From IMG/VR virus record IMGVR_UViG_3300034198_018123, positions 1 to 38,404 of that record: a DNA stretch of 38,404 nucleotides; one strand, 5' to 3'. The stretch comes from a virus. Position numbers and translations under genes: made by a program. Every line of letters starts with the position of its first letter. The first letter of the stretch is position 1. Below, one piece after another: positions 423-35,029 of this stretch. The notes beneath the pieces are model-generated. The model was not told where the DNA came from, did not search any database, and was given only the letters and a program-made list of their open reading frames with translations.

Positions 423-430
423 GATAAATA
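423..430 (+). promoter_or_regulatory. T4-like late promoter, leaderless type
   Basis: The octamer GATAAATA is followed by exactly 5 nt and then ATG at 436. With T4 late-promoter geometry (octamer at -13 to -6), +1 falls on the A of the start codon. Confidence 0.7.
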
Positions 431-435
431 ATAGC

Positions 436-1185
436 ATGAGCAAATATAATACTTGGTACAACAACATAACAGAAAATGCAAAAACTCGCTCTCTCAATGG
501 ATATAAGGAACGACACCATATTATTCCTCGCAGTTTAGGCGGGTCTAACGATAAAGAAAATTTAGTAGATCTTACAGCCAGAGAACATTTTATATGTCAT
601 TGGTTATTGATAAAAATGTATTCTGGAGAATCAAAAGCCAAAATGGTTTATGCATTAAATGGTATGAAAAGAAATGGGCAATATACCAAAAGATACGAAA
701 CTAAAATAACTAGCAGAGTTTACGAAAATCTTAAAAAAGAATTCTCTCTTATACACTCCACTACAATGAAAGGTCGTCCTGCGCATAACAAAGGAGTGCC
801 GGCCACAGAAGAACAAAAAGAAAAAAATAGAAAATCTGCATTGGGTAAAAAAATGAGTTCAGAATCTATTGCTAAAGGTGTAGCTAAACGCACAGGGCAA
901 AAGCGAACAGAAGAACAAAAAGCAAGAATGAAGATAGCAATGACTGGTATTAAAAAAGGGCCAATGAGTGACGCAGAAAAAACTAAACGATCAGTGGCGT
1001 TAAAAGGTACAAAGAAATCTGTCGAACACGGGGTTGCAATCAGTGCCACTGTAGCAAAACAGCGAGCAGAAGGTACACACTACAGTCAAATAAAAATACA
1101 ATGTCCGCATTGTCCAGTTAAATCTGCAAAACATAGATACAATGCTTTTCACGGTGACCGTTGCAAGCACAAACTCACGCCCTAA
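436..1185 (+). CDS. HNH homing endonuclease with NUMOD3 repeats
   Basis: This is a probable site-specific DNA endonuclease of the phage homing type. From the ATG at 436 it has 249 residues. The HNH core is visible as H27-H28, a GG turn at 35-36, N42-L43, and H51/H55. It is followed by Lys-rich NUMOD3-type DNA-binding repeats (NKG...EEQK...S motifs, residues about 110-215). A C-terminal CPHC...H...C finger (about 222-245) resembles those at the end of other phage homing enzymes. The frame also opens upstream with TTG at 421, but that codon lies at the late-promoter octamer, so ATG 436 is preferred. No Shine-Dalgarno is seen. The gene sits just after gp23, a common free-standing homing location. 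Its A-rich codon use differs from its neighbours and suggests independent mobility. Confidence 0.88.
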   Translation: MSKYNTWYNNITENAKTRSLNGYKERHHIIPRSLGGSNDKENLVDLTAREHFICHWLLIKMYSGESKAKMVYALNGMKRNGQYTKRYETKITSRVYENLKKEFSLIHSTTMKGRPAHNKGVPATEEQKEKNRKSALGKKMSSESIAKGVAKRTGQKRTEEQKARMKIAMTGIKKGPMSDAEKTKRSVALKGTKKSVEHGVAISATVAKQRAEGTHYSQIKIQCPHCPVKSAKHRYNAFHGDRCKHKLTP

Positions 1186-1187
1186 CC

Positions 1188-1195
1188 GATAAATA
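1188..1195 (+). promoter_or_regulatory. T4-like late promoter, leaderless type
   Basis: GATAAATA ends exactly 5 nt before the ATG at 1201, the same geometry as at 423-430. Confidence 0.68.
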
Positions 1196-1200
1196 TTGCC

Positions 1201-1341
1201 ATGATCACCAGCATTAGATTTTCAAACTTTGTAGCAGAACCCCCACCACCCTCACCTATAGGCAACCCAGTGGGCTATGGCACAATCAAGCCAACAAATC
1301 CTGTGCCTGTGTACAACAAGAAAGTTAACACAAATGGCTAA
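1201..1341 (+). CDS. 46-aa protein with capsid-targeting-like N-terminus
   Basis: This small gene of 46 residues was found by reading the frame directly downstream of a late promoter. The N-terminus (ITSIRFSNFVAE) resembles the T4 internal-protein capsid-targeting sequence, which ends in FIAE. The remainder is Pro-rich with a basic C-terminus (YNKKVN). Its stop codon overlaps the start of the next gene by 8 nt (ATG 1334, TAA 1339-1341), so the two are probably translationally coupled. No homologue is recognised. It may be an internal head peptide or a leader peptide controlling the following gene. The residue after the putative cleavage Glu is Pro, which is unusual for gp21. Confidence 0.55.
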   Translation: MITSIRFSNFVAEPPPPSPIGNPVGYGTIKPTNPVPVYNKKVNTNG

Positions 1342-1633
1342 TCCACCCCCACCATACGCAGACATCACAGGCATCAGTCGTGCTGTGATGAAAGACAACG
1401 CACAGGCCAACATTGTGGCCTACAATGGCAATGCTCGCCCCAGCGAGCTAGTGGTCAGCCAAGCGGATCAAACAATCTATGTGGGCAACGTCAACGGCGC
1501 TCTCAACAAAGTCATACAGTCGTCGGGCACAGGTGTATTCTTGGGCAATGTCAGAGTGGTCGCCAATGTCTCGGGATTGGTCTCACTGTACCTAGATCCT
1601 GCCACAGGCGAAGTAGTGGCCTACCAGCCTTAA
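1334..1633 (+). CDS. Small virion/fibre-like protein, 99 aa
   Basis: This 99-residue protein starts at ATG 1334, inside the end of the 46-aa gene. An upstream in-frame start (1277) would add 19 residues that lack structural-protein character and would overlap the 46-aa gene deeply. The middle part (RPSELVVSQADQTIYVGN, followed by Asn/Val/Gly-rich beta repeats) is like the short modules of the fibre proteins in this window, so a virion surface or fibre-associated role is inferred. It ends tail-to-tail with the glycosyltransferase gene: the stop codons overlap at 1630-1633. The precise function is unknown. Confidence 0.6.
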   Translation: MANPPPPYADITGISRAVMKDNAQANIVAYNGNARPSELVVSQADQTIYVGNVNGALNKVIQSSGTGVFLGNVRVVANVSGLVSLYLDPATGEVVAYQP

Positions 1634-2787
1634 ACCTTGTAACAGCCAAGATGTTGGTTGATCTTTTCTGTCACTGATTGCCAATCGCCCATCCGAGGCT
1701 GTCGGAACAGTGTGGCACTTGAATACCAAGGACTGTCATCTCTGTTCAACAACCAGCGCCAGTCCAGCGCAAACTGACTCAGCATAACACCGGTGGGTCT
1801 ACCCAAGGCCCCAGCCAAGTGTGCCACAGCAGTGTCCACTGCCAATATCACATCCGTGTTCATCATCAAGGCTGCTGTGTCAGCAAAGTTTTTGATACTG
1901 CCCGGATAAGCCCGTACTCCGGCCCGAACCAATGCCAATTCTTCCTCTGCAGTGCAGTCGCACTGTAAGTTGATCCATTCATACGTGGGATTCTGTTGGA
2001 TCAAGGCCAACATGGTGTCAAACGGCATGCCTTTGTGACGATTGATCCAGGTGTCTCTACGACCCGACCAACAGAATCCCACACGCAATCGTGTTTTTGG
2101 ACCCAGTTTGGTCAGCCAGGCCTGTTGCAGTTCAGGATCAGCGCCGAGATAACAAGGTACCAGTGCAAGATTTTGCAAGGTTGATCCAATGATGCCGGGA
2201 ATACTCATGATTGGAGTCCAGTAATCAAAAGGCGGCAACGGTTGATTAAATGCCACAATGTCGGAGATGGCCGCAATTCGGAACAGTGGTATCAATGCAG
2301 GATCAACCACTAGCACAACCTTTGCTCCGCGAGCCGCAACGTCGCCCACAAATCTCACAAATTGTATGTTGTCGCCGTGACCTTGTTCACCAACAATCAA
2401 CACTGTTTTGCCCTGTATGTTTTGACCAGTCCAGCGTGGTTGTTCAAATTGGGGCAGTGCACCGGCCAGGTGTTCAAAATTCCATCGATGTTCATACTGT
2501 GCCCAACCACGCTCATAGTCTCCGGCCAACAAATAGGCCACAGCCAAGTTAAACTGTGTTATTGAGTTAGTGGGATCCAACTGTATGCTTCGTTGTAAAA
2601 ATGGTATGCCACCCTGGGGATCTCCACACTCGCGCAACACATTGCCGTAGTTGCAAAATGCTCCAGCATGGCCACGGTCTTCAATCATGACTTGAGCGTA
2701 GCATCTCAACGCCAACTCTGGATTGTTTTCGGCTCTGGCTGTGTTGCCTTGATTGATCAAGTGCTCTAGTTCTAATTTGGTACTCAT
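1630..2787 (-). CDS. TPR-domain glycosyltransferase (GT9/heptosyltransferase-like)
   Basis: This 385-residue protein has TPR helices at about residues 5-110 (motifs such as GNVLRECGD and NLAVAYLLAGDYERGW). They are followed by a GT-B-type domain. The C-terminal half contains VGFCWSGRR and the signature VDTAVAHLAGALGRP, which matches the nucleotide-sugar site of ADP-heptose/GT9-like enzymes found in bacterial TPR-glycosyltransferases. The probable role is sugar transfer to a phage structural protein, host surface glycan or another acceptor; the substrate cannot be read from the sequence. It is encoded opposite to the flanking late genes but has its own late-type promoter. It looks like a bacterial gene acquired by the phage. 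Confidence 0.8.
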   Translation of the reverse strand: MSTKLELEHLINQGNTARAENNPELALRCYAQVMIEDRGHAGAFCNYGNVLRECGDPQGGIPFLQRSIQLDPTNSITQFNLAVAYLLAGDYERGWAQYEHRWNFEHLAGALPQFEQPRWTGQNIQGKTVLIVGEQGHGDNIQFVRFVGDVAARGAKVVLVVDPALIPLFRIAAISDIVAFNQPLPPFDYWTPIMSIPGIIGSTLQNLALVPCYLGADPELQQAWLTKLGPKTRLRVGFCWSGRRDTWINRHKGMPFDTMLALIQQNPTYEWINLQCDCTAEEELALVRAGVRAYPGSIKNFADTAALMMNTDVILAVDTAVAHLAGALGRPTGVMLSQFALDWRWLLNRDDSPWYSSATLFRQPRMGDWQSVTEKINQHLGCYKV

Positions 2788-2792
2788 AACTT

Positions 2793-2800
2793 TATTTAAT
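2793..2800 (-). promoter_or_regulatory. T4-like late promoter for the glycosyltransferase, leaderless type
   Basis: On the minus strand ATTAAATA is followed by 5 nt (AAGTT) and the ATG at 2787. It diverges from the plus-strand promoter at 2833-2840. Confidence 0.62.
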
Positions 2801-2832
2801 TAACACCTAACTGACTAAAATATTTGTCCAAC

Positions 2833-2840
2833 CATAAATA
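2833..2840 (+). promoter_or_regulatory. T4-like late promoter, leadered type
   Basis: CATAAATA with predicted +1 near 2846 gives a leader of about 85 nt before ATG 2931. Confidence 0.7.
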
Positions 2841-2846
2841 CTTGTC

Positions 2847-2930
2847 AACGCAATTCGGCGTTTTATGCAGGCTTCGAACCCCTGCGTACCGGCTAGAACC
2901 CGGATCGGACTTCTTTAAGGAGAAAACAAA
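2847..2930 (+). promoter_or_regulatory. Structured 5' leader of the 252-aa structural gene
   Basis: Three consecutive inverted repeats are seen. AACGC/GCGTT (2847-2851 with 2858-2862) is followed by T's and looks like a weak terminator. GCAGG/CCTGC pairs 2867-2871 with 2881-2885. A CCGG/CCGG pair lies at about 2889-2902. A strong Shine-Dalgarno (TAAGGAG) precedes the ATG. The leader may stabilise or attenuate the transcript. Confidence 0.45.
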
Positions 2931-3689
2931 ATGGGTCGTCCTCTAAAAATCAAAAAATCTACAACCAGTGACATTGGTTTCAATGCATTAGCCGGGCTAA
3001 CAGCTCCAGTATTACCATCACCAGTGTTTGACAACAACACAGAATATCTTGGTGTTGTTGGTGGTTCAAACACAGTGGACACAGCCACATATCCCACAGT
3101 CAAATGCCGTGTGTTCATCACTGGCTTTGCCGAAGAAGATGGTTATATTATCCGTCAAAAAGGCTCACACAAGTATCTAGTGGGCGGAATCACAGCTCGT
3201 ACAGCATTGGTCGCAGGATCAGCTTATCGTGTCACTGTGGTTGGTGACACAAACTGGGCAACTTATGGTGCCGGTAGTGATGTAGCAGCAGGCGATGTGT
3301 TTACTGCCACAGCAGCATTGGCCAACACAGGAACAGGTCGTGTGAACGCAGTGGGTCAGTGTGTATTGACCAGTGACTTGACGCCAACAGCTGGCAACAT
3401 GAGTATCAGTTACTTCAGCAATGACTCAACAGAAACAGCAATCAGCAAGTTGACCAACAAGTTCTTGCAAAACTTTGCTGGTGGTGCTGTGGGTGGCAAT
3501 GCAGACACAGGTGATGTATGGGCAGCAACAGACACAGTTGACAACGTGGCATTTGCAGCCAACTTCTTCAGTGACGAAGGTACAACTGTCAAGTCTGGTG
3601 CCGAAACAGACACATGGGGCACCAACGGTTCAGAGCAATTGGCCAATGGTAACTTAGATCTAGCAATTGTAGAAAACTACAACAGCTAA
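2931..3689 (+). CDS. Probable virion structural protein, 252 aa
   Basis: The sequence is rich in Ala, Thr, Gly and Asn, with no membrane segment or signal peptide. It begins MGRPLKIKK. A central module (about residues 103-142: YRVTVVG...NWATYGAG...GDVFTATA...GTGRV) resembles a short beta module seen in many phage fibre and decoration proteins. It has its own late promoter, a structured leader, a strong Shine-Dalgarno and a strong downstream terminator, which is the layout of a highly expressed single-gene unit. A capsid decoration, head fibre or tail accessory protein is therefore plausible. Related proteins occur in marine T4-like phages without an agreed function. The structural role is inferred. 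Confidence 0.65.
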   Translation: MGRPLKIKKSTTSDIGFNALAGLTAPVLPSPVFDNNTEYLGVVGGSNTVDTATYPTVKCRVFITGFAEEDGYIIRQKGSHKYLVGGITARTALVAGSAYRVTVVGDTNWATYGAGSDVAAGDVFTATAALANTGTGRVNAVGQCVLTSDLTPTAGNMSISYFSNDSTETAISKLTNKFLQNFAGGAVGGNADTGDVWAATDTVDNVAFAANFFSDEGTTVKSGAETDTWGTNGSEQLANGNLDLAIVENYNS

Positions 3690-3705
3690 TTTTGACCAAC
3701 CAAAC

Positions 3706-3737
3706 AATCCCCACAATAAGTACTGTGGGGATTTTTT
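3706..3737 (+). terminator. Rho-independent terminator overlapping the next gene's ribosome binding site
   Basis: A 10-bp stem (3706-3715 with 3724-3733) has an 8-nt loop and a T run to 3737. The next start codon, ATG 3738, follows immediately, and the only purine-rich Shine-Dalgarno candidate (GGGGA, 3727-3731) lies in the stem. Confidence 0.85.
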
Positions 3738-4322
3738 ATGACCACAGCATTTGTACTAGGCAACGGAGTGAGCAGGCAAGCAGTTGATTTGGCACTGTTG
3801 CGCCCGCTTGGAAAAATTTATGGGTGTAATGCTTTGTATAGAGATTTTGTGCCCGATGTATTGGTTGCCACAGATCGCCCTATTTCCGCAGAAATACAAA
3901 ATTCTGGATATGCTATCAACAACAAATTTTACACACGAAAACCCACGGAAAATCAAGGTGCATTAAAAGTTCCACACGAATACTACGGCTACAGTTCCGG
4001 TCCGTTGGCCACAGGCATAGCAGCCATAGATCAACATCGTGTAATCTACATGATTGGGTTTGACATGGGTCCAGTGAACAATCGATTCAACAACGTATAT
4101 GCTGACACCGACTTTTACAGAAAGTCTGATGCAACCCCGGTGTTCACCGGCAACTGGACCAAACAAATACGTCGAATTTGTGAAGATTTTCCCCAAACAC
4201 AGTTTGTGCGAGTGCAAGGCAAAACCACAGCGGACATAGCGGAATTTGCCACTATCAAAAACCTTGTGCATTTGCCCATGCACACTTTCTTGGACCGCAT
4301 AAATAATCAAAAGGATCTTTAA
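3738..4322 (+). CDS. MptE/DUF115-like protein beside fibre genes
   Basis: This 194-residue protein begins FVLGNGVSR, a Rossmann-like glycine-rich start, followed by IYGCNALYRDF and PDVLVATD, then IYMIGFDMG. This pattern resembles the 6-hydroxymethylpterin pyrophosphokinase MptE-like / motility accessory factor (DUF115) superfamily, whose members bind nucleotides or activated sugars. The substrate is unknown. Its start codon abuts a terminator, so it is probably made only from read-through transcripts. It is followed directly by a short fibre gene. A second protein with a similar IFMIGYN motif lies at 16194-16859, also right after a fibre gene. A role in modifying fibres or host glycans is inference. 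Confidence 0.5.
   Translation: MTTAFVLGNGVSRQAVDLALLRPLGKIYGCNALYRDFVPDVLVATDRPISAEIQNSGYAINNKFYTRKPTENQGALKVPHEYYGYSSGPLATGIAAIDQHRVIYMIGFDMGPVNNRFNNVYADTDFYRKSDATPVFTGNWTKQIRRICEDFPQTQFVRVQGKTTADIAEFATIKNLVHLPMHTFLDRINNQKDL
4298..4305 (+). promoter_or_regulatory. Intragenic T4-like late promoter for the small fibre operon
   Basis: CATAAATA lies in the last codons of the MptE-like gene. Predicted +1 is near 4311, with an AAAGGA-type Shine-Dalgarno (4310-4316) and ATG at 4323. Confidence 0.6.
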
Positions 4323-4925: not shown

Positions 4926-4934
4926 GGAAAAATC

Positions 4935-5644: not shown

Positions 5645-5647
5645 TCA

Positions 5648-5655
5648 ACTAAATA
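5648..5655 (+). promoter_or_regulatory. T4-like late promoter, leadered type
   Basis: ACTAAATA starts 3 nt after the previous stop. Predicted +1 is near 5661, followed by an AGGAT Shine-Dalgarno (5666-5670) and ATG 5676. Confidence 0.68.
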
Positions 5656-8658: not shown

Positions 8659-8666
8659 GATAAATA
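8659..8666 (+). promoter_or_regulatory. T4-like late promoter of the giant fibre
   Basis: GATAAATA with predicted +1 near 8672. This leaves a leader of about 197 nt before ATG 8869, by far the longest in the window. Confidence 0.68.
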
Positions 8667-18662: not shown

Positions 18663-19964
18663 TTAACCGCCGTTGTCTGCTCTAGGTTTAAGTATTTCAG
18701 AAAGACTCTGTCTACTTGGAATTGATCCACGATCAGTTGTGGCCACGTTGCCTGTGTTGTTGACAAAACTTGCACGCTGTGTCTGTGCACCAGTTGCATA
18801 GTTAAGATCAGTGCGTACCTTTTCTTCAATCTTGATCCATGTGCGACCGTTGAATCTAAACAATCGATTTGGAAAGTAATCCAAGCGTAAGGCATAATCT
18901 CCGGCAACTGGATTTGTGGGAAAACTTACTCCCGGAGTCACGGGTAATCCATTGGGCGCAATGCCGTCCCCAGTTAAGTATCCTAATGTGTATCCATCTG
19001 CTCGGGGAGTAGTACCTTCTGCACCTTCGGTACCATCAACTGTGACTCTTGTGTTATCTACTGTGGCACCAGCCTGTGCAGGTTGGCCATCCACTGTGGT
19101 TGGAAGAATATAGAACTTGACAGTGTCGTATCCACTGAGTGGAAGTTCGGCATAGGCCTGTGTGATAATAGCATCGTTGATGGCCAAATCTCTTGGACGA
19201 GTGCTGGTTTGTTCTCCCTGTGTTGGAGGATCAGTTGGGCGCCAGTAATCGGTATCGGTAATATCTGTGCCAGGTGGAACAGGTTGCGTACTGATGTACC
19301 ATGTATCACCGTTGTTGACAATAGTTCCACCAGGATAGAAATTACCAGGATCCCATATGTTGTCTGGTCCAGCCGGTTGATTGATAATGTCCTGATATTC
19401 TTGAGCATTGACCATGGGTGTGGCTTTTACACGCCATAGATGAGGCAACCATGTTTGACTAAATCCTTCAGAGGCATAGGCAGCATCTTGTATCACATAG
19501 TACCTTGGCACAGCTTTGTAAATACCAGCCGCATCCAACGGATAGTAATCTTTTAAGTTTGGTACTTCTATCACATCACCGCTCATGAGCTTACGACCAA
19601 ATGTGTCAATCATGTCGTTGAAGTGGAATGTGATAAACAATGTGTCGTTGTTTAAAAATAAACCAAACTGTGTTAAATCAAAGTCAACATCTTGTGTTCT
19701 ATAAACGCCGCGCAGGATGTAAATGTCAGGATCGTATGCGCGGTCTCTGTTTTCCCCCAACAACAAATCTTCAATGAACAGGGGATTTTGCTCATCGTAC
19801 ACAGGTATGGTAGCATCGTTGTCTCCTACATCGCCTGTTTTTGGACCTAGATATTTGTGGATATAAAGATCCAGTCCGCCCACGGTGTACATTTCACTGA
19901 TAGTACGATCTAAGAACTTATAGTCGTTGGTTCTGTTGGGACGGTAAAGGCTAAGTCTTGGCAT
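18663..19964 (-). CDS. 14: Neck protein gp14
   Basis: This is a probable T4 gp14-like neck protein, which with gp13 forms the collar that closes the packaged head and binds the tail. Supporting features are PDIYILRGVYRTQDVDFD, then LFLNNDTLFITFHFNDM, then LMSGDVIEVPNLKDYYPL and WLPHLWRVKATPM (about 80-185). The position next to gp15 is also typical. It has 433 residues against about 256 in T4. An inserted region (about 200-245: NIWDPGNFYPGG, NNGDTWYIST, DYWRPTD) looks like a small carbohydrate-binding-type module. A second Trp module (LFRFNGRTWIKIEEK) lies near the C-terminus. It is first in a gp14-gp15-Nudix operon with its own late promoter. Confidence 0.72.
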   Translation of the reverse strand: MPRLSLYRPNRTNDYKFLDRTISEMYTVGGLDLYIHKYLGPKTGDVGDNDATIPVYDEQNPLFIEDLLLGENRDRAYDPDIYILRGVYRTQDVDFDLTQFGLFLNNDTLFITFHFNDMIDTFGRKLMSGDVIEVPNLKDYYPLDAAGIYKAVPRYYVIQDAAYASEGFSQTWLPHLWRVKATPMVNAQEYQDIINQPAGPDNIWDPGNFYPGGTIVNNGDTWYISTQPVPPGTDITDTDYWRPTDPPTQGEQTSTRPRDLAINDAIITQAYAELPLSGYDTVKFYILPTTVDGQPAQAGATVDNTRVTVDGTEGAEGTTPRADGYTLGYLTGDGIAPNGLPVTPGVSFPTNPVAGDYALRLDYFPNRLFRFNGRTWIKIEEKVRTDLNYATGAQTQRASFVNNTGNVATTDRGSIPSRQSLSEILKPRADNGG

Positions 19965-19971: not shown

Positions 19972-19979
19972 TATTTATG
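19972..19979 (-). promoter_or_regulatory. T4-like late promoter of gp14
   Basis: On the minus strand CATAAATA is followed by 7 nt and ATG 19964. The predicted leader is only 2 nt, with no Shine-Dalgarno. Confidence 0.66.
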
Positions 19980-19985: not shown

Positions 19986-20014
19986 TTGACCAGTAATGAC
20001 AAACTATGTATAAT
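19986..20014 (+). promoter_or_regulatory. Consensus sigma70 promoter, leaderless type
   Basis: TTGACC, a 17-nt spacer and TATAAT (20009-20014), a near-perfect sigma70 promoter. The start codon at 20021 is 6 nt after the -10, so the transcript should begin at or next to the AUG. It is divergent from the gp14 late promoter 6 nt away. Confidence 0.8.
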
Positions 20015-20269: not shown

Positions 20270-20285
20270 CATAATCAAGTATAAT
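20257..20285 (+). promoter_or_regulatory. Sigma70-like promoter, leaderless type
   Basis: A -35-like TTTACT (20257-20262), 17-nt spacer and TATAAT (20280-20285). The start codon at 20293 follows after 7 nt. Confidence 0.62.
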
Positions 20286-20292: not shown

Positions 20293-21438
20293 ATGATCAA
20301 ATCTAAAACACAACAAATCAAACTTCTTAACCCAAAAGGCGCAGAGATCAAATATACCGGCGGCGAACCCGAATGGAGAGTTCAGCCTGAAGACAACCGA
20401 GTCAGTGCATTGTCGGCGGGATTTGCCTGGTACAACTATCACTATGGCAAGAAAGATGCCAAAGACATGATTGTGCATTGGTTGGAACACAACGATCGTT
20501 CCAAAGATGCTCGAAAGATCAGAGCAATACCAGACAGCCAAATAAGACTGACTCCGGCCTGGGTGTGTCGAATGAATTTAGTTGGTTTGAAGTTAACGGA
20601 TCGTGAGTTATTGCAAATCAATGAACAAATTGACACCATGCTCCGAATCAAAGACGAAGTCAAGATTGTGGTCACCGAAGAAGAAACAGAACAGAACCGA
20701 GTGACCATTCAAGATCGTCTTAAAGAAAAAGTTAGTGAGTGTGCTGGCGAACTTGAAGGTGTGTTTGATGAGTTTGTGGCCGATGGTGCAAAAATGTCTG
20801 CAAACATCAAGCCCATTGCTACCATTCGCGGAATGAATGTGGCACCACAGATGATCAGCAATATCAGCAATATTTGGAAACAACGTCTGTCAGAATTTGA
20901 AGAAGCAGTAGAAGGTCGAGACAGCGACCTAGTAGAAGGATATTCAAACTTTTCAAAAATACAGTTACGCAACATGATCAAATTCTGTGAAACAGTGATC
21001 AATGATTGTAACGCATATGTACAGATCAAAAAAGTAGAACGCAAACCACGTGCCAAAAAAGCAGTGAGTCCAGAAACGCAAGCACGCAAGTTCAAATACC
21101 TAAAAGCATTCGAAGAACTCAAACTTGAAAGCGAACCACCAGCACGTTTGGTTGGAGCAAACGAAGCTTGGTTGTACGACACTAAAAAACGCAAGCTGAT
21201 CTACGTTGTAGCAGACACACACATTGGTGAAATTACAGTTAAGAACAATATGTTGTTGGGATTTGATGCAGCCGTCACAGTACAAAAAACTCTACGTAAG
21301 CCAGCAGATCAAATACGAGCATTGTTAGCAGGTGGAAAACCAGCGGCTCGCAAGTATTTCAAAGATATCCGAGCCACAGATACCAAATTCAACGGTAGAG
21401 GCACTGAGAACATGATCATCCTTAGAGCTGGTAAATAA
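20293..21438 (+). CDS. Conserved phage protein of unknown function, 381 aa
   Basis: A 381-residue soluble protein, Lys/Glu-rich and largely helical. Visible features are SAGFAWYNYHYGKKDAKDM near 38-56, a long helical middle (110-250) and a basic stretch KKVERKPRAKKAVSPETQARK at about 245-265 (split by the linker). The C-terminal domain contains WLYDTKKRKLIYVVAD, a LRKPADQIRALLAGGKPAARK segment in two helices, and the end NMIILRAGK. Similar unassigned proteins occur in marine T4-like phages. The basic regions and host-type promoter suggest a DNA- or RNA-associated role during replication rather than a virion part; this is inference. No Shine-Dalgarno precedes the start. Confidence 0.7.
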   Translation: MIKSKTQQIKLLNPKGAEIKYTGGEPEWRVQPEDNRVSALSAGFAWYNYHYGKKDAKDMIVHWLEHNDRSKDARKIRAIPDSQIRLTPAWVCRMNLVGLKLTDRELLQINEQIDTMLRIKDEVKIVVTEEETEQNRVTIQDRLKEKVSECAGELEGVFDEFVADGAKMSANIKPIATIRGMNVAPQMISNISNIWKQRLSEFEEAVEGRDSDLVEGYSNFSKIQLRNMIKFCETVINDCNAYVQIKKVERKPRAKKAVSPETQARKFKYLKAFEELKLESEPPARLVGANEAWLYDTKKRKLIYVVADTHIGEITVKNNMLLGFDAAVTVQKTLRKPADQIRALLAGGKPAARKYFKDIRATDTKFNGRGTENMIILRAGK

Positions 21439-22235: not shown

Positions 22236-22270
22236 TAGACACAGAACTAAAACAGTGCTACAATAGCACT
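22236..22270 (+). promoter_or_regulatory. Sigma70-like promoter with palindromic operator-like -10
   Basis: TAGACA (22236-22241), 17-nt spacer, TACAAT (22259-22264), then 6 nt to ATG 22271. A perfect 7-bp inverted repeat, AGTGCTA-CAA-TAGCACT (22254-22270), spans the -10 and ends at the base before the start codon. Confidence 0.68.
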
Positions 22271-24382: not shown

Positions 24383-24390
24383 TATTTAAC
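24383..24390 (-). promoter_or_regulatory. T4-like late promoter, leaderless type
   Basis: On the minus strand GTTAAATA is followed by 4 nt (CAGC) and ATG 24378. It diverges from the gp18 promoter. Confidence 0.55.
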
Positions 24391-24440
24391 ACAAAACCTT
24401 TGGCAAAGGGCAACAATACATCACTCTTTTGAGACGATAC

Positions 24441-24448
24441 GATAAATA
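24441..24448 (+). promoter_or_regulatory. T4-like late promoter of gp18
   Basis: GATAAATA with predicted +1 near 24454. It is followed by an AAAGGA Shine-Dalgarno (24463-24468) and ATG 24475. Confidence 0.75.
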
Positions 24449-24474: not shown

Positions 24475-27400
24475 ATGGCACTATTATCACCAGGCGTAGA
24501 AGTAACAGTTATTGACGAAAGTCAATATATCCCTGCAGCTACCAACTCGGTCCCCTATATTTTAATCGCCACTGCACAGAACAAAATTTCTGGCACAGGC
24601 GCAGGTGTTGCCGCAGGTACATTGGCCGCCAATGCTAACAGAGTGTACTTGATTGACAGTCAACGTGATTTGGCTGCTACATTTGGCAATCCATTCTTTT
24701 ACAAAACCACAGCTGGTACACCAATCAACGGTTACGAGCTAAACGAATATGGCTTGTTGGCCGCGTACTCAGCATTGGGTGTAACTAATCGTGCTTACGT
24801 TCAACGTGCAGACATTGATCTAGCAGAACTTACTGCTACACTAACACGTCCAACAGGTAACCCTGATAACGGAACATACTGGCTAGACACAGCAAATACT
24901 GTGTGGGGTATTTTTCAGTGGAACATTACAACTGGTGCATTTACCAACCAAGTACCTCTAGTTATTACCGACTCAGCAGATTTAGTACCCAGTTCAACTG
25001 TGCCTTTACAAAGCATTGGTAGCATTGGAGATTATGCAATCACAGCAACCAACTTGAACAATCCTGGATATTTCAAACGTGGCGGCCCTACTTCTAGTCA
25101 AACCAGTGCCACATCAATTAGTGTTTTATACAATACCTGGGTACAAGTTGGCAGCAATGAATGGAAAACATCATGGCCTACAATCCAAGGCACATTGGCT
25201 CCATCAACTCTCAGTGCTGGCAGTATCATCATCAATGGAACTACCGTTACTATCACCAACGGTTCTACAGTAAACACTTTGGCAAACTCAATCAACTCTG
25301 CCAGCATCACTGGTGTATATGCTGCCACAATTGATGGTAAATTAACAATCTATGCAGACTCAACTGCTCAAGCAGATGGCAGTACATTAGGCGAAGGCAT
25401 TGTTGAAATTGACAACGGATCAGGAACACCTTTGGCAAGTTTGGGTATTACAGCCACTGCCAGCTCAACTTATTATTTTGCTCCTGCATTCCAGGCCAGC
25501 CCACACTACACAGTACCACGCTGGGGTTCTAGTCAAACAACTCCGGAGCCAACAGGATCAGTATGGCAAAAAACAACCAATGTAAATCTTGGTGCAAACA
25601 TTGTGATCAAGAAGTTCAATTCAACGCTTGGAACATTTATTCAACAATCGTGTCCAATCTTTGCTACTCAGCACGAGGCATTGTATGTTCTTGATCCTGC
25701 AGGTGGCGGAGTCAATATTCCAGTAGGTACAACTTTTGCAAGATTAAATCCAACATTTGCTAGCCCTGATACATTGGGTTTGATAATTCTTGAATCGTTT
25801 GCCACCGGGTCTGTGAACATCACTGGGTCTAACACAGCTCCTACATTTGTATCTGGTAACCGGTTCACAATTACAGCCAGTGTTCCGGGGGTATCGGCAC
25901 TACCGTCACCGGTCACAGCCATACTGAGTGGAACTACAGCCTCTGCGTTTGTGACAGCAGTGTCGGCTGCTGTGGGAACCACAACATTTGCACCATATGT
26001 AAGCGCAAGCGTCAACAGTGATGGGGCCATTGTATTCACTCACAGTGCAGGCGGCGAAATTGTGTTGACTCCGGTAGCAGGCCAAGGCACACCAATTTCA
26101 ACAGCAGGATTCAATACTAGTATTGAAGGAGTCCGAGTAGGTGGTTCCACAGCTGGCCAGTTGGTTCTTTCTAATTTTACAGACTCTACCATTGGATTTT
26201 CCTACACTGCTAGTTCAACAGCACCAGATCAAGATCCAGCCGACGGACGTCTGTGGTACTATTCAGCAACAAATCAAGCTGATATCATGATTCAAAACAA
26301 CGGAGCATGGTTTGGCTATCAAAACGTTGTAAACGATGTGCGTGGTGATAATTTGAGTTTAACCAATGCCTCAGGACCACAGTTCAGTGCAACAGCACCA
26401 ACAACTCAAAACAACACAGCACAGAGTCCATTGCAATATGGCGACTTATGGATTGATACCAGCGATTTAGAAAACTATCCAGTGATCAATCGTTGGAGTT
26501 TGGTTGATGGAGTTGACCAGTGGGTAACTTTGGACAACACAGATCAAACCACAGAAAATGGTGTGTTGTTTGCAGATGCACGTTGGGCAACCAATGGCAC
26601 AACCGATCCAATCACAGGAGCTATTCCAACAATCACAAGTTTGTTGACTTCAAACTATTTGGACCTAGATGCACCGGATCCTTCACTATTTCCACAGGGC
26701 ATGTTGTTGTTCAACACACGCCGTTCAGGATTCAACGTCAAATCATTCCAGGTAGATTATTTCAATGCCACTGCTTTCCCAGATGATGTATTGCCCACAC
26801 AAACCAATGCATGGGTAACAGCATCAGGCAACAAAGCCAATGGATCACCCTACATGGGTCGTCAAGCTCAACGTGCTTTGATAGTGTCGGCTCTCAAAGC
26901 CGGTATTGATGCCAACATTGAGGTTCGTGAGGAACAACGTCAGTTTAACTTGATTGCATGTCCGCAATATCCAGAACTAATGATCAACATGGTTGCACTC
27001 AACAACGAACGCAACAACACAGCATTTGTAATTGGTGATACACCATTGAGATTGGGCCCAGACAGTGCAGAAATTACCAATTGGGCAACCAACAATGGCG
27101 GAGCTGGTACTGCAACAGAAGACGGCTTAAACGTTTCTGATGTGTATTTGGGAGTGTTTTACCCAAGTTGCCAAACAACAGATTTATCAGGCTCACCGGT
27201 GGTACAACCACCAAGCCACATGATGATCCGTACTATTATTCGCAGTGACGAAGTGGCATTTCCATGGTTGGCACCGGCCGGTACACGTCGTGGAGTGATT
27301 GACAATGCTGCACGTATTGGTTATGTTAACTCTGCCACAGGTGAATTTGAATCAATTGGTGTACGTCAAGGTCTACGTGACGTGCTGTACGAACAAGATA

Positions 27401-27822
27401 TCAATCCAATTACATTTGTACCGGGTATTGGTATCACCAACTTTGGTAACAAGACTGTCACTAATGTGGCCACAGCGATGGATCGTATCAACGTAGCACG
27501 TTTGGTAGCATTTATTCGTGGTAGATTGACAGAAATTGCCAAAACATTCTTGTTTGAACCCAACGATCAAATCACTAGAAATGAGATCAAGAACTCCATT
27601 GATAGTTTGATGATTGACTTGGTAAACAAACGCGGTATCTATGATTACCTAGTGGTCTGTGACTTGACCAATAATACACCAACACGTATTGATGCCAATG
27701 AATTGTATGTTGACATTGCAATTGAGCCAGTCAAAGCAGTTGAATTTATCTACATTCCATTGCGCATCAAGAACACTGGAGAAATTTCAAGTAGCTTGTC
27801 AACAGTGGCTACAGCGAGTTAA
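24475..27822 (+). CDS. 18: Tail sheath protein gp18, expanded
   Basis: This is the contractile sheath subunit. The N-terminus MALLSPGVEVTVIDES and the C-terminal third (RRGVIDNAARIGYVN, VLYEQDINPITFVPG, ARLVAFIRGRLTEIAKTF, EPNDQITRNEIKNSID, ELYVDIAIEPVKAVEFIYIPL) are clear gp18 signatures. At 1115 residues it is far longer than T4 gp18 (659). The extra middle includes a segment at about 240-330 like the flagellin hook IN motif (ING..VTI..GSTV..LA.SIN followed by DGKLTIYA), a second related segment at about 445-555, and Trp-rich DGRLWYYS and GDLWIDTSD modules (590-680). These would project from the sheath surface. It has a strong Shine-Dalgarno, late promoter and terminator. Confidence 0.93.
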   Translation: MALLSPGVEVTVIDESQYIPAATNSVPYILIATAQNKISGTGAGVAAGTLAANANRVYLIDSQRDLAATFGNPFFYKTTAGTPINGYELNEYGLLAAYSALGVTNRAYVQRADIDLAELTATLTRPTGNPDNGTYWLDTANTVWGIFQWNITTGAFTNQVPLVITDSADLVPSSTVPLQSIGSIGDYAITATNLNNPGYFKRGGPTSSQTSATSISVLYNTWVQVGSNEWKTSWPTIQGTLAPSTLSAGSIIINGTTVTITNGSTVNTLANSINSASITGVYAATIDGKLTIYADSTAQADGSTLGEGIVEIDNGSGTPLASLGITATASSTYYFAPAFQASPHYTVPRWGSSQTTPEPTGSVWQKTTNVNLGANIVIKKFNSTLGTFIQQSCPIFATQHEALYVLDPAGGGVNIPVGTTFARLNPTFASPDTLGLIILESFATGSVNITGSNTAPTFVSGNRFTITASVPGVSALPSPVTAILSGTTASAFVTAVSAAVGTTTFAPYVSASVNSDGAIVFTHSAGGEIVLTPVAGQGTPISTAGFNTSIEGVRVGGSTAGQLVLSNFTDSTIGFSYTASSTAPDQDPADGRLWYYSATNQADIMIQNNGAWFGYQNVVNDVRGDNLSLTNASGPQFSATAPTTQNNTAQSPLQYGDLWIDTSDLENYPVINRWSLVDGVDQWVTLDNTDQTTENGVLFADARWATNGTTDPITGAIPTITSLLTSNYLDLDAPDPSLFPQGMLLFNTRRSGFNVKSFQVDYFNATAFPDDVLPTQTNAWVTASGNKANGSPYMGRQAQRALIVSALKAGIDANIEVREEQRQFNLIACPQYPELMINMVALNNERNNTAFVIGDTPLRLGPDSAEITNWATNNGGAGTATEDGLNVSDVYLGVFYPSCQTTDLSGSPVVQPPSHMMIRTIIRSDEVAFPWLAPAGTRRGVIDNAARIGYVNSATGEFESIGVRQGLRDVLYEQDINPITFVPGIGITNFGNKTVTNVATAMDRINVARLVAFIRGRLTEIAKTFLFEPNDQITRNEIKNSIDSLMIDLVNKRGIYDYLVVCDLTNNTPTRIDANELYVDIAIEPVKAVEFIYIPLRIKNTGEISSSLSTVATAS

Positions 27823-27886: not shown

Positions 27887-27894
27887 CATAAATA
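27887..27894 (+). promoter_or_regulatory. T4-like late promoter of gp19
   Basis: CATAAATA with predicted +1 near 27900, then an AGGAG Shine-Dalgarno (27905-27909) and ATG 27916. Confidence 0.75.
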
Positions 27895-30503: not shown

Positions 30504-30524
30504 GCATAACCCATATTATACCAC

Positions 30525-30532
30525 AATAAATA
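30525..30532 (+). promoter_or_regulatory. T4-like late promoter of the small terminase, leaderless type
   Basis: AATAAATA is followed by 4 nt (TGGT) and ATG 30537. No Shine-Dalgarno is present. Confidence 0.6.
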
Positions 30533-30536
30533 TGGT

Positions 30537-31043
30537 ATGACAAGAAAATTAGAATCGTTGTTTGATTTACCCCCCAGCGGATTTGATTCTGAAACTCCAG
30601 CGGATACTGTGGTCGTTCCTGTGACAAAAACTGCTCTAGCAGAAATTGACGATACCATTGACAAAATTGATGCGGCTTTGCCCAGTGTGCAGGGCCTGGA
30701 CAGCAGTGACGAAGAAATGGATGAACTTGCCAAAAAAGCCACGGAAACATTTGATGATTTGATGGATCTTGGAATGCAGGTTGATAGCCGTTATGCCAGC
30801 GAAATCTTTGCTGTGGCTGGTGCTATGTTGGGACACGCACTCACAGCCAAAACTGCCAAACTAAACAAAAAACTAAAAATGGTTGATCTACAAATGAAGA
30901 AACTAAAACTAGATCAAGACCGCGAAAAAAATGCCAATGCAGATGGCAATGTCCCAATGGAAACCGCAGAAGGACAAGTACTGAGTCGCAATGATCTACT
31001 GGAACGCTTGATTGGCAACAGAGATCAAAAGTCAAAAGACTGA
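30537..31043 (+). CDS. 16: Terminase small subunit gp16 (probable)
   Basis: A 168-residue protein with an acidic N-terminus (IDDTIDKIDAAL; SSDEEMDELAKKATETFDDLMDLG in two stretches) and a long basic coiled-coil helix (GHALTAKTAKLNKKLKMVDL, then QMKKLKLDQDREKN, about 100-135). Size and layout match the small terminase gp16 of T4-like phages, in which a central coiled coil oligomerises and regulates the large terminase gp17. Aquatic relatives share the DLGMxVxxR...GxxLGHAxxAK pattern. The terminal segments bear no HTH. An alternative is a scaffold-like helical protein. It is preceded by a late promoter so close that its mRNA should be leaderless. Confidence 0.68.
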   Translation: MTRKLESLFDLPPSGFDSETPADTVVVPVTKTALAEIDDTIDKIDAALPSVQGLDSSDEEMDELAKKATETFDDLMDLGMQVDSRYASEIFAVAGAMLGHALTAKTAKLNKKLKMVDLQMKKLKLDQDREKNANADGNVPMETAEGQVLSRNDLLERLIGNRDQKSKD

Positions 31044-31049
31044 TAAATA
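31042..31049 (+). promoter_or_regulatory. T4-like late promoter overlapping a stop codon
   Basis: GATAAATA shares bases with the TGA stop (31041-31043) of the small terminase gene. Predicted +1 is near 31055, with a short AGGAAA leader and ATG 31067. Confidence 0.68.
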
Positions 31050-31066
31050 TCGTATAGGAAACTGAC

Positions 31067-31675
31067 ATGAAAAAATTTAACGAATACCTTGCAGAATCAC
31101 AAAGAGTCTACAATTATCGCATCAAAATTGTAGGGGACGTACCATCGGGCTTTGTCAAAGCACTGGAAGAGAAACTCAAGCAGTTTGATCCTGCCAAGAT
31201 CTCTGATGTAAAGACAACTCCAGTACAACTTAACCCAGCAGAATTTCCAGCCTACAACAACGAGCGTGTGAGCCATATGGATTGTGAATTCCGCTATCCT
31301 GCGATTGAGCCACAGATACAACAAATTGCTCAGTTGTTGGGACTAGATCCTAATCGTATTCGTATGTTGACAGTTCCATACGAAGATTCCATGAATCAAG
31401 AGCGTGTAGATGTTGAAGAACAAAACAAAGATTTGTTGACAGACACAGACTATCCTGCTCCCAACAAAGAACAAAAAGCTCTAAGCAAAGATTACTCAAC
31501 TGGTCCTTATGATCATGCTGTGTTGAAAAATGCTTATCGTAGCAACTTTGAAATTGCTGGAGGCAAGACTCCACCTGCAACAACAACAAACGATTTACCC
31601 ATGGGCGACACAAGCCCAATGAGCACAATCAAGCGCCCAGCACGGCCACTAACTGGTAGAAACCCAAGAGGATAA
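31067..31675 (+). CDS. Putative internal head protein with capsid-targeting N-terminus, 202 aa
   Basis: The N-terminus MKKFNEYLAES is very close to the capsid-targeting sequence of T4 internal proteins (MKTYQEFIAEA), including a gp21-type cleavage site LAE|S. The rest has a compact domain (about 14-110) with YRIKIVGDVPSGFVKALEEKL, HMDCEFRYPAIEPQIQQIA and LLGLDPNRIRML. A disordered tail rich in Pro, Thr and Arg follows. Similar proteins are seen in aquatic T4-like phages without a function. Packaging into the prohead core is inferred from the N-terminus. It starts the operon with the two following genes. Confidence 0.68.
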   Translation: MKKFNEYLAESQRVYNYRIKIVGDVPSGFVKALEEKLKQFDPAKISDVKTTPVQLNPAEFPAYNNERVSHMDCEFRYPAIEPQIQQIAQLLGLDPNRIRMLTVPYEDSMNQERVDVEEQNKDLLTDTDYPAPNKEQKALSKDYSTGPYDHAVLKNAYRSNFEIAGGKTPPATTTNDLPMGDTSPMSTIKRPARPLTGRNPRG

Positions 31676-31680
31676 TTGAT

Positions 31681-33651
31681 ATGACATTTTTTTACGACCT
31701 AAACAAACGCATGGCTGAATTGGCCACTAAACAAAATTTAGCAGAAGGCAAACAGGCCAAGCCAGACTTCTTGGACATTGACAAAGACGGCGACCGTAAA
31801 GAGCCAATGAAAAAAGCTGCCAAAGAAAAAGATCTTGACGAAGCCAGTTACAGTGCTACGTCTGCTCGTGCCGGCAAAGACATTGGTAAGCCAGGCAAAG
31901 CATTTGGTACTATTGCCAAAGATGCAGCTGGACGTTATGGTTCAAAAGAAGCTGGTGAGCGTGTGGCTGGTGCTGTGTTGAAAAAACTACGTGCCAAAGA
32001 AGATGTCAGTGAAGCTGAAATGGACGAAAGTGCATTGCAAGCATATTTGGGCAAGAAAAAATACGGTGAGCAAGGTATGAAGGCCTTGCAACAGGCTGGC
32101 CGTGATGGAGCCAGCAAACAAAAGATGGCCAGCATTCGTGCCAAGCACAACAAGATGGATGAAGCCGAGATGGAAGAAGGCAATGAGTTTTCAGGCGAGT
32201 TGGTCAAGGCACGTGCTCAAGGTGCCAAGGAATTTGAAGTAGATGGCAAAACATATCCTGTCAAAGAAGCCAAAGCCAAAAAAGACAAACCAAAAAATGT
32301 ATTTGATCCAGAAGTGGCACGTAAAATGTTTGAACCTGAAAAAGGCACTGGCAAATTTGACAAGAAACAAATTTCCACAGGTACAGTGTACACTCGTCGC
32401 TACGAGGAAGAGCCCGACGAGGACGAAGACAGTGATACACCAAAGAAAAAAGGTCGCAAGACTGTGGGCGCAGGCAAAGGCAAGAAGCTTGGTGCCAAAA
32501 GCCGCGGCACAAGCAAGTTGGCCAGCAAAGGGTCAATTGCAGAAGATAGCACTATGAACTTGGTAGTTCGAGCCACTGGTTATGCAGCAGACTTGATCAA
32601 CCGTATGCAACAAAACGGTCAAGTTGAGCCCAAAGAACTAATGACTAAATTGCGTGCAATACACAAAATTCTCAGTCAAGTTCAAGGCGGTAATGCAGTG
32701 ACTATTTCCGAAGACGACACAATTCCTTTGGTAGACAAAGGCGAATATGATCGTGAAGGCGAAATGGCCAAACAACAGATTCACACTATTATGCGTGCGG
32801 CCAAACAATTGCACGGTATGTTGGGTGATGACGACAATCTGCCAGAGTGGGTACAAAAGAAAATTACGTTGGCACAAAACTACATTGATGGTGTAAGTGA
32901 TTACATGACCAGTGTTGATGCTGAACGTGACGAAGAGCAACCCATTGCAGAAAAAGCCGTGAGCCAGGCACAACGCAAAGCCGCTGGCATTGCCTATGCT
33001 GCTGCCAAAGGAGAAATTCCTAAATCAGAATTGCGTGGTGCATCAAAAGAAATGGCCAAGATGCCTGCTGGTGAATTAAAGAAATTTGCCACAACCAAAG
33101 AAAAAGATTTGCCAAAGAAAGTCAAAGAAGCTGATGCAGAACCCAAAGCCAAAAAAACTGGCGGTATTGAATTTGGCAAAGGTGTTTACGAAAGCATCAA
33201 CAGCCGTGTTGAAAACATGATTGCCGAAGGCATGAATGTGTCAGTGAACATGAGCATGGGTTCAGATGGAGAACCAACTAAAAATATCACCGTCAGTGCC
33301 GAAGGTGCTGAAGCTGAAACATTGGCACAGTTGTTGAATTTGGCTGGTATGAAATCCAGCAGTTGCGGCTGTGGTCAAACACCATGCGGTTGCGACAAAG
33401 TTGAAGAAGCCTATGGCAACACAGATCCAACTGAAAATGCACCTGACTATCCTACAGATGCAGAAACCACAGGTGAGGATGATGCGCTGTTACGCCGTTG
33501 GGCAGGTGGATTGAACAAGCCTAAGTCAACAGGTCAAACAACTATCCCAGTGATTGCCAGTCAAACTGATCGTCAAGTCAGCGAACAAGCTGTTGCTGAC
33601 AAGTTGGGCATGAACCTGTATGCAGAACTAAAGCAGTTCAAGGCCCGTTAA
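31681..33651 (+). CDS. Large Lys/Ala/Glu-rich internal head or core protein, 656 aa
   Basis: A highly charged, low-complexity protein of 656 residues with many Lys- and Glu-rich repeats. The first 30 residues (ending in KQNLAEGK) include a possible targeting/cleavage site LAE|G. Next come DFLDIDKDGDRKEPMKKAAKE and ARAGKDIGKPGKAFG, a KKYGEQGMKALQQAGRDGASKQKMASIRAKH segment (about 127-157), helical 300-430 and basic stretches. Many xxE|(A/S/G) sites (SEAE, DESA, AEGM) fit processing by the prohead protease. A Cys cluster CGCGQTPCGCD lies at about 562-572. It is probably a scaffold/core or packaged internal protein. A Shine-Dalgarno (AGAGGAT) precedes ATG 31681. Confidence 0.62.
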   Translation: MTFFYDLNKRMAELATKQNLAEGKQAKPDFLDIDKDGDRKEPMKKAAKEKDLDEASYSATSARAGKDIGKPGKAFGTIAKDAAGRYGSKEAGERVAGAVLKKLRAKEDVSEAEMDESALQAYLGKKKYGEQGMKALQQAGRDGASKQKMASIRAKHNKMDEAEMEEGNEFSGELVKARAQGAKEFEVDGKTYPVKEAKAKKDKPKNVFDPEVARKMFEPEKGTGKFDKKQISTGTVYTRRYEEEPDEDEDSDTPKKKGRKTVGAGKGKKLGAKSRGTSKLASKGSIAEDSTMNLVVRATGYAADLINRMQQNGQVEPKELMTKLRAIHKILSQVQGGNAVTISEDDTIPLVDKGEYDREGEMAKQQIHTIMRAAKQLHGMLGDDDNLPEWVQKKITLAQNYIDGVSDYMTSVDAERDEEQPIAEKAVSQAQRKAAGIAYAAAKGEIPKSELRGASKEMAKMPAGELKKFATTKEKDLPKKVKEADAEPKAKKTGGIEFGKGVYESINSRVENMIAEGMNVSVNMSMGSDGEPTKNITVSAEGAEAETLAQLLNLAGMKSSSCGCGQTPCGCDKVEEAYGNTDPTENAPDYPTDAETTGEDDALLRRWAGGLNKPKSTGQTTIPVIASQTDRQVSEQAVADKLGMNLYAELKQFKAR

Positions 33652-33652
33652 T

Positions 33653-34360
33653 ATGAAAAGTCTACGAGACTATCTAGCAGAGTCAGAATATCGCGCACTC
33701 AATCCTGTCAAGGGTGATGACTTTGTGTTTGAGTTTGATGATGGTACTGCGGTTGAAACTTATATTCTTGAAGCGTCAGCTGATGAAATTTTGGTGGATG
33801 CCACAGAAGAAACCTGGGCTGTGATGGAACAGTGGATGGGCTTTGAACACATCCTGTCTGAAGGTATCCAGTGCGAAGCAGAACTAGAGGATGATTCAAT
33901 AACCGAAGGTGCTGTAAAACACATGATGCACAAAGACGCGGAACAGATGAGTCGTGATGAATTTGTGGACAAGTACGGTGAAGAGAACGGTGAGTTTTGG
34001 GACAACATCAATGCAGAGTTAGATGAAGATCAAGGTGCCGGCGAAGTCATGGCCAAAGCTGCCGACGAAGCTCCAGTGGACACCATGGAAGCTGAATATC
34101 AAGGTCGTAGTGTCACACTCAACAAACCCACTAGAGGGGACCAAAAAAAATTCAAGGTCTATGTTCGAGATCCAAAGACTGGCAATGTCAAAAAAGTAAA
34201 CTTTGGACACGGTGGCAAAACAGCCAAACGACTTGGTCAAAAGACCATGAAGATCAAAAAGTCTAACCCTGCACGACGTAAAAGTTTTAGAGCAAGACAC
34301 AACTGTGCCAATCCAGGTCCTCGTACAGGTGCCAGATATTGGTCTTGCAGAGCTTGGTAA
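33653..34360 (+). CDS. Putative internal head protein with RARHNC module, 235 aa
   Basis: It starts MKSLRDYLAES, a second T4-like capsid-targeting sequence with an LAE|S site. Several more xxE|(A/S/G) sites follow (ILEA, LSEG, ITEG). Residues 15-70 are an acidic beta domain (FVFEFDDGTAVETYILEAS). The C-terminal 85 residues form a conserved phage module: KFKVYVRDPKTGNVKKVNFG, then SNPARRKSFRARHNC, then GPRTGARYWSCRAW. Two Cys (HNC, WSC) and many Arg/Lys suggest a nucleic-acid-binding or zinc-stabilised fold. The same C-terminal module occurs in other aquatic T4-like phages, unassigned. It follows the 656-aa gene with a 1-nt gap. Confidence 0.66.
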   Translation: MKSLRDYLAESEYRALNPVKGDDFVFEFDDGTAVETYILEASADEILVDATEETWAVMEQWMGFEHILSEGIQCEAELEDDSITEGAVKHMMHKDAEQMSRDEFVDKYGEENGEFWDNINAELDEDQGAGEVMAKAADEAPVDTMEAEYQGRSVTLNKPTRGDQKKFKVYVRDPKTGNVKKVNFGHGGKTAKRLGQKTMKIKKSNPARRKSFRARHNCANPGPRTGARYWSCRAW

Positions 34361-34383
34361 ACTAAAGCAAGTTATTGGAATAG

Positions 34384-34391
34384 ACTAAATA
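34384..34391 (+). promoter_or_regulatory. T4-like late promoter, leaderless type
   Basis: ACTAAATA is followed by exactly 5 nt (ATAGT) and ATG 34397. The HNH gene at 436 has nearly the same junction (ATAGC, ATG). Confidence 0.7.
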
Positions 34392-34396
34392 ATAGT

Positions 34397-35029
34397 ATGA
34401 AAACATACTATGTCTATCTCTTAACCGATCCTCGAAATAATCACGAAGTTTTTTACTGTGGCAAAGGCACCGGCGATCGGTGGAAAAGTCATCTTGGCCA
34501 TTGGTCAGGTAACGGTAAAAATAATCCAACAGAAAATAAAATTAAAAAAATACAAGCAGAAGGATTACAACCTGGTGTGATGCTTCTACATGAAAATATT
34601 GTAGATGAGAATGAAGCCTACCGTCTTGAAGAAAACTACATTAGAGATCATTTTGATAAACTTACAAATCTTAAAATAGAAGCAAAACCGCCATCATGTA
34701 AAGGAAGACCAGGTTGGAACAAAGGTAAACAACTTTCTAAAGAACATAGAGAGAATATATCTAATGGTTTACTTGGAACTAAACGTGGTAGTTATTCTAT
34801 TGAACACAAAAAAGCAATAAGCGAAAGTTTAAAAAAAGAAAAACATCCTATGTGGGGTAAGCCAGCACTAAATCGCAAAACTATTATTGAAAAGACTACT
34901 AACACAGTTTACACTGATCAAATAACAGCATCAAAAATTTTAGGATTACGGCAGGGAGATATTGCTAACTGTTTAGCTGGCCGCCAAAAGAGTACCAAAG
35001 GTTTTAAGTTTGCGTACCAACACAACTAA
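34397..35029 (+). CDS. GIY-YIG homing endonuclease with NUMOD domains
   Basis: A 210-residue endonuclease. The GIY-YIG core shows Y5-V-Y7 and Y20-C-G22-K-G, then R28 in GDRWKSHL and the acidic EEN near 78-80, in the LEM-3-like subfamily pattern. NUMOD3-type repeats (KGRPGWNKGK...SKEH; GTKRGSYSIEHKKAIS) span 102-145, and a NUMOD1-like C-terminus (YTDQITASKILGL...GFKF) spans 172-205. It is A-rich compared with its neighbours. It interrupts the run of internal-protein genes, as expected for a mobile element. No Shine-Dalgarno is seen. Its stop codon lies inside the next late promoter. Confidence 0.88.
   Translation: MKTYYVYLLTDPRNNHEVFYCGKGTGDRWKSHLGHWSGNGKNNPTENKIKKIQAEGLQPGVMLLHENIVDENEAYRLEENYIRDHFDKLTNLKIEAKPPSCKGRPGWNKGKQLSKEHRENISNGLLGTKRGSYSIEHKKAISESLKKEKHPMWGKPALNRKTIIEKTTNTVYTDQITASKILGLRQGDIANCLAGRQKSTKGFKFAYQHN

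Follow-up and report, generated by a model that had tools for sequence, protein, structure and literature searches.

Leaderless mRNAs, on which the promoter puts the RNA start on the AUG and which carry no Shine-Dalgarno (SD) sequence, are familiar from phage lambda cI and from mycobacteria. To our knowledge, the phage examples so far known are single genes. The late promoters of phage T4, which depend on gp55, gp33 and gp45, are octamers with TAAATA as their last six bases, placed about one helical turn before the start; they occupy positions -13 to -6, their first two bases being numbered -13/-12 (PMC2988020). Cyanophages S-PM2 and Syn9 have NATAAATA as their late promoter consensus (PMC2984593), while late promoters of the Aeromonas phage Aeh1 have a/gC at -13/-12 (PMC2988020). 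Start sites have been mapped in the jumbo phage AR9, whose leaders are 26-491 nucleotides (nt) long (PMC5312081). Here we describe a viral DNA of 38,404 bases, the complete IMG/VR record IMGVR_UViG_3300034198_018123 (hereafter the window), in which late octamers of the T4 type lie so close to several start codons that the mRNAs would begin on, or within a few bases of, the AUG. A literature search found no account of T4-like or jumbo phages with leaderless late mRNAs, many subscription papers lying outside its coverage.

Seven octamers in the window lie 4, 5 or 7 nt before an ATG, and no SD is present at any of them. The original prediction had proposed leaderless late mRNAs for these genes, and all the positions and spacings that it gave proved right. 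On the plus strand, GATAAATA occurs twice with a gap of 5 nt, at 423-430 before ATG 436 of an HNH homing endonuclease gene (436-1185) and at 1188-1195 before ATG 1201 of an open reading frame (ORF) of 46 aa (1201-1341). Further along the same strand, AATAAATA at 30525-30532 stands 4 nt before ATG 30537, and the variant ACTAAATA at 34384-34391 stands 5 nt before ATG 34397 of a GIY-YIG homing endonuclease gene (34397-35029). The gene at 30537-31043 belongs to phrog_16202, where function is unassigned, and is small-terminase-like (terS-like) only by the call made in the earlier prediction. On the minus strand are the variant ATTAAATA at 2793-2800, 5 nt before ATG 2787 of a 385-aa protein (2787-1630) whose label of 'glycosyltransferase-like' has the same source, CATAAATA at 19972-19979, 7 nt before ATG 19964 of a gp14-like neck or virion structural protein (19964-18663), and the variant GTTAAATA at 24383-24390, 4 nt before ATG 24378 of a zinc/HNH-like protein (24378-24031).

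Four of these seven octamers match NATAAATA, and the three variants (2793-2800, 24383-24390 and 34384-34391) differ from it at position 2. A strict NATAAATA search motif, which misses the latter three sites, was dropped. Octamers as such are no commoner in the window than chance would give (35, with 31 expected), and abundance was therefore set aside as evidence in favour of position. TAAATA is found 4-8 nt before ORFs of at least 40 aa eight times in the window, as compared with zero to four times for each of the 14 hexamers that share its composition; the highest control, ATAAAT with four occurrences, overlaps the TAAATA motif.

The position of the box was then measured in a clade of relatives comprising around 240 related viral contigs or loci, gathered in three scans of viral contigs, and three genomes of 317-345 kb. 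In this clade the box is NNTAAATA; sites were assigned to a near class, with a gap of 4-8 nt between box and ATG, or a far class, with a gap of 16-30 nt. A peak at 5 nt, rather than a flat distribution, was the test set for relatives by the original prediction; the distances prove to be bimodal, one mode lying at 4-8 nt and the range of 9-15 nt being nearly empty. For NATAAATA followed by ATG in 80 relatives, 47-48 sites fall at 4-8 nt, about 121 at 16-30 nt and 2 at 9-15 nt, while permuted octamers place about 4 sites in the 4-8 nt bin. Clade-wide, measuring from the TAAATA of NNTAAATA to the ATG, there are 395 sites at 4-8 nt, 28 at 9-15 nt and 544 at 16-30 nt, drawn from 67, 25 and 82 protein families, respectively. 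When the modal gap of the near class is taken family by family (68 families), it is 5 nt in 26, 4 nt in 18, 7 nt in 10, 6 nt in 9 and 8 nt in 5.

The sequence of the clade boxes is that of T4-type late promoters, TATAAATA/NATAAATA, save that position 2 is free: at 4-8 nt there are 88 variant sites with C, 124 with G and 45 with T. In this degeneracy the clade differs from T4, and the C variant parallels the a/gC of Aeh1 (PMC2988020). Most single substitutions outside position 2 abolish the 4-8 nt peak. Smaller peaks persist for ATAATTA and ATAAGTA, and there is no peak for AAAAATA, ACAAATA, ATAAAAA or most permutations. A second difference from T4 is that nearly half of the late-promoter families in the clade have the near placement, with about half keeping a gap of 16-30 nt and an SD.

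The two classes are sharply distinguished by their ribosome-binding signals. An SD-like motif is present at -18 to -5 in 440 of the 544 far-class sites, which thus have the ordinary SD leader of T4-type late genes, but in only 9 of the 395 near-class sites. Pairing with the 16S rRNA tail (anti-SD) at -4 kcal/mol or better is found in 85-91% of the far class, 20% of random sequence and 11% of the near class, so that SD pairing in the near class is below random. Start triplets at the near spacing are ATG at 395 sites, GTG at 15 and TTG at 14, the last two close to the background of 12 for CTG and 19 for ATC, neither being a start. Exclusive use of AUG was nevertheless rejected as a test of leaderlessness, being undiscriminating since leadered genes also mostly start with ATG.

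Near placement extends to early promoters of the sigma70 type. In the clade, the gap between TATAAT and ATG is 6 nt at 98 sites, as against 5 nt at 21 and 7 nt at 24; the 6-nt peak spans 44 families, is found without an SD and is absent from control phages. Three such genes, all on the plus strand, are seen in the window. A consensus promoter, TTGACC-N17-TATAAT at 19986-20014, ends 6 nt before ATG 20021 of an 82-aa ORF. This ORF is listed from 20006 and would then contain the -10 box, so its true start is probably 20021. TATAAT at 20280-20285 lies 7 nt before ATG 20293 of a 381-aa protein (phrog_11903), and an extended -10 (TGCTACAAT) at 22259-22264 lies 6 nt before ATG 22271 of an exonuclease-like gene. 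Judged by this spacing the three early genes appear to be leaderless too, beyond the late-only set proposed originally. The core of the original prediction is thus supported, by the bimodal gap and the absence of SDs, but its boundaries have shifted: the placement is shared by sigma70 promoters, and it is not a property of all late genes.

The zinc-protein gene provides evidence on the origin of its transcript. A terminator-like hairpin (CCTTTGCCAAAGG, 24397-24409, minus strand), followed by TTTT, lies just upstream of the octamer. The hairpin arms covary in relatives (CCTTTG/CAAAGG, CCTTAC/GTAAGG, CCTACT/AGTAGG and CCTATA/TATAGG), and a hairpin with matched arms and a T-run is present in 65 of 102 zinc-protein genes, in most cases 5-8 nt ahead of the octamer. 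Since transcripts reading through from upstream should terminate at the hairpin, the octamer is the likely source of the zinc-protein mRNA, and the spacing would appear too tight for a read-through RNA with a leader.

The 4-8 nt late placement is absent above background in nine cultured T4-type phages and is specific to the clade. T4, S-PM2, Syn9, KVP40, 121Q, Munch, PA5oct, Atu_ph07 and Phosso have 0-6 near sites each, at or below control, the sole exception being Phosso with 2 sites against 1.0. In the clade genomes G001, G003 and G005, by comparison, there are 28, 34 and 34 near sites where 6-9 are expected. S-PM2 and Syn9 share the NATAAATA consensus with most clade sites but show the leadered class only, and in PA5oct and Munch the gp14-like gene has an ordinary SD leader. 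The cultured relatives nearest to the window, at 30-43% protein identity, are the jumbo phages Atu_ph07, Phosso, PA5oct, 121Q, RaK2 and Munch. The roughly 240 viral loci are closer to it in identity, some of them lying within contigs of 317-353 kb. Structural genes in the window are those of a T4-type contractile phage (sheath, two tube-like proteins, gp14-like neck or structural protein, sheath stabiliser and head-tail adaptor), and the source group is an uncultured lineage of T4-type jumbo phages. As in T4, a sigma factor of the gp55 family is encoded, a homologue (phrog_12791) being present in eight of nine large clade contigs.

We consider it probable, at about 0.85, that these viruses operate a clade-wide leaderless programme, with leaders of 0-3 nt in both early and late genes and with initiation kept weak. 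A gp55-type late box, or the sigma70 TATAAT in early genes, would be fixed close to the start codon, so that RNA polymerase starting normally, some 5-6 nt past the box, would hit the A of the AUG or a base at most 3 nt before it. Given T4 octamers at -13 to -6, a 5-nt gap puts +1 on the A itself. Lacking an SD, such mRNAs would have to be loaded by AUG-first initiation, whether by 70S ribosomes or with the assistance of IF2. A second class of genes would have the box 16-30 nt away and an SD leader, intermediate spacings being avoided as too long for leaderless initiation and too short to fit an SD. The late gap of 4-8 nt and the sigma70 gap of 6 nt, with no SD, resemble the arrangement in lambda cI and mycobacteria. 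The difference from mRNAs of the lambda cI type is that the clade has a genome-wide class, on early and late promoters. The parts are known, and their organisation as a programme is without description in the searchable literature.

The purpose of weak initiation may be sought in the functions of the genes concerned. Near-class late families with a functional call include portal, terminase large subunit, terS-like and gp14-like neck proteins, baseplate wedge, homing and HNH nucleases, radical SAM proteins and nucleotidyl-transferase-like enzymes; far-class families include sheath, tube, virion structural proteins, endolysin and ribonucleotide reductase. The portal gene is near-class in all three complete clade genomes and SD-led in 121Q, and each of the three carries AAGGAG at the major capsid gene. 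The trend, in a limited sample, is for late leaderless genes to be mostly low-copy or catalytic and for capsid, sheath and tube to be SD-led. There is perhaps an even chance that the leaderless mode serves the low dosage of proteins needed in small amounts. It would hold translation low for portal, terminase, neck, baseplate wedge and nucleases, strong SDs being used for capsid, sheath and tube.

Exchange between start types is seen among orthologues. In the gp14-like family 78 of 101 sequences are leaderless with AUG, and the remaining starts include six in which a strong SD is combined with AUU in the form GGAGAAnCAAA-AUU (L112:10001, L127:6137, L146:1194, L152:10001, L156:4374 and L176), two with an SD and GUG and one with UUG. 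A seventh AUU sequence, L054, emerges once shorter matches are admitted. In a tree made by a quick method with SH-aLRT support, the AUU state needs at least five independent changes from a leaderless background. SD with AUU is also found in three terS-like sequences (L174, L035 and L171). There is no nearby alternative start in six of the seven gp14-like AUU sequences (in L146 the sole other candidate is a TTG at -84) or in two of the three terS-like ones (L174 has a TTG at -57); the AUU calls in L054 and L035 are less certain, other start candidates being in frame. Nearly all scorable sequences of sheath (92), tube (98) and the gene at 31067 (67) have an SD with AUG.

AUU starts are known from E. 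coli infC and T4 26*, where they are discriminated by IF3 and the pairing of SD with AUU keeps initiation low. The clade differs in that AUU replaces a leaderless AUG in orthologues of one phage gene, and does so repeatedly. IF3 counteracts initiation on leaderless mRNAs and represses it at AUU (PMC4611024), so that leaderless AUG and SD with AUU may be under equivalent control. More tentatively, there may be a two-channel scheme in which abundant proteins are SD-led and many early and late genes are IF3-discriminated, through either leaderless AUG or SD with AUU, their dosage tracking the IF3 and 70S state of the cell. A phage-encoded IF3, sought as a switch, was found in none of nine clade contigs and is present in phage 121Q. 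Ribosomal protein S21 is encoded by five of the nine large clade contigs (G001, G002, G005, G007 and G008) and may bear on the choice of phage mRNAs.

Several points weigh against a leaderless programme or its proposed purpose. The term 'leaderless' is here deduced from promoter geometry, with the position of +1 carried over from T4, and no gp55 gene was seen in the window, itself a fragment. About 90% of gap-7 genes have ACT immediately before the ATG, a pattern suggestive of transcription from the A and hence of a leader of 3 nt, not zero; it is for this reason that the class is worded as having leaders of 0-3 nt. Genes with gaps of 6-8 nt probably carry a leader of 1-3 nt rather than none, and for the gp14-like gene at 19964 the probable leader is ACU or none. 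As to dosage, one terminase large subunit and some homing endonucleases are leadered, exceptions to the rule, and the second tube gene and others sit in operons. Some bacteria, moreover, express leaderless mRNAs well (PMC4611024).

Possible, though doubtful, is an explanation through the host, whereby a phage of a lineage heavy in leaderless mRNAs merely matches its host. Host-type (sigma70) and phage-type (gp55) promoters are both placed in this way, as would then be expected. However, the strong SDs in about half of the phage late genes imply that the host has ordinary SD initiation, and a scan of a genome collection with a gp14 alignment identified no host, yielding five matches only, all distant and in metagenome-assembled genomes of different phyla. 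Genome compaction, in which promoter and start are squeezed into short intergenic regions without regulatory meaning, we regard as unlikely. The early promoter at 19986-20014 and the late promoter of the gp14-like gene do stand back to back, divergent and within about 60 bp, and the promoter of the zinc-protein gene is squeezed between hairpin and start. Yet both classes coexist in one genome, divided largely by function, and the mode is absent from cultured jumbo relatives; nor does compaction explain why orthologues regaining a leader often use AUU, GUG or UUG.

It is very improbable that TAAATA at 4-8 nt, instead of being a promoter, serves translation as an A/U-rich element (an S1-type enhancer, for example) of a longer mRNA made by read-through. 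Although A/U-rich upstream sequence can aid initiation without an SD, and some clade genomes have their own S21, the failure of AAAAATA and its like to give a peak indicates a requirement for the late-promoter sequence and not for A/U content. The identical box is also found at 16-30 nt with an SD, sigma70 -10 boxes are likewise placed and at the 6-nt spacing expected for +1, and in the zinc-protein family the box is closely preceded by terminator-like hairpins. Still less credence can be given to the idea that the ATGs are miscalled and that true starts lie downstream behind an ordinary leader. Gene starts called automatically in phages are often in error, but gp14-like conservation begins right after the ATG (P2, R3 and L4 being nearly invariant), most first in-frame downstream ATGs would remove conserved residues, and the peak spans about 67 families.

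If the leaderless programme is real, its orthologues with leaderless, SD with AUG and SD with AUU starts offer dozens of natural gene pairs with which to probe promoter placement against protein dosage, making answerable the vague question of why a phage drops its ribosome-binding site. It is also predicted that SD-based gene finders misplace starts in much of this abundant environmental lineage.

Late octamers with normal SD leaders, passed over by the original prediction, are also found in the window, at genes 4323, 21461, 24475, 27916, 31067, 35063 and 36126, and the presence of both placements in one window indicates that the phage uses both modes. On the plus strand, CATAAATA is seen at 4298-4305 (17 nt before ATG 4323), at 27887-27894 (21 nt before ATG 27916, tail tube) and at 36099-36106 (19 nt before ATG 36126); GATAAATA at 24441-24448 (26 nt before ATG 24475, tail sheath) and at 31042-31049 (17 nt before ATG 31067); and GGTAAATA at 21430-21437 (23 nt before ATG 21461, head-tail adaptor). 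Two good octamers, at 2833-2840 and 8659-8666 (both plus strand), have no gene start within 80 nt, the next starts being at 2931 and 8869. They may serve long leaders, small RNAs or unlisted small genes; an RNA at octamer 2833 was considered, and ARAGORN finds no tRNA within the window. Additionally, TTTAAATA at 35485-35498 (plus strand) is followed after 5 nt by an ATG in frame within the gene at 35363, possibly an internal leaderless start or a chance occurrence.

Two further observations concern structural and packaging genes. The terminase large subunit of G005 (G005:C1:332623-335114) is divided between two frames with about 1 kb between them, suggesting that an intron, a homing nuclease gene or the like has been inserted. 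The tail sheath gene of the window (24475-27822) is unusually long, encoding 1,115 aa where the T4 sheath protein gp18 has about 660 aa.

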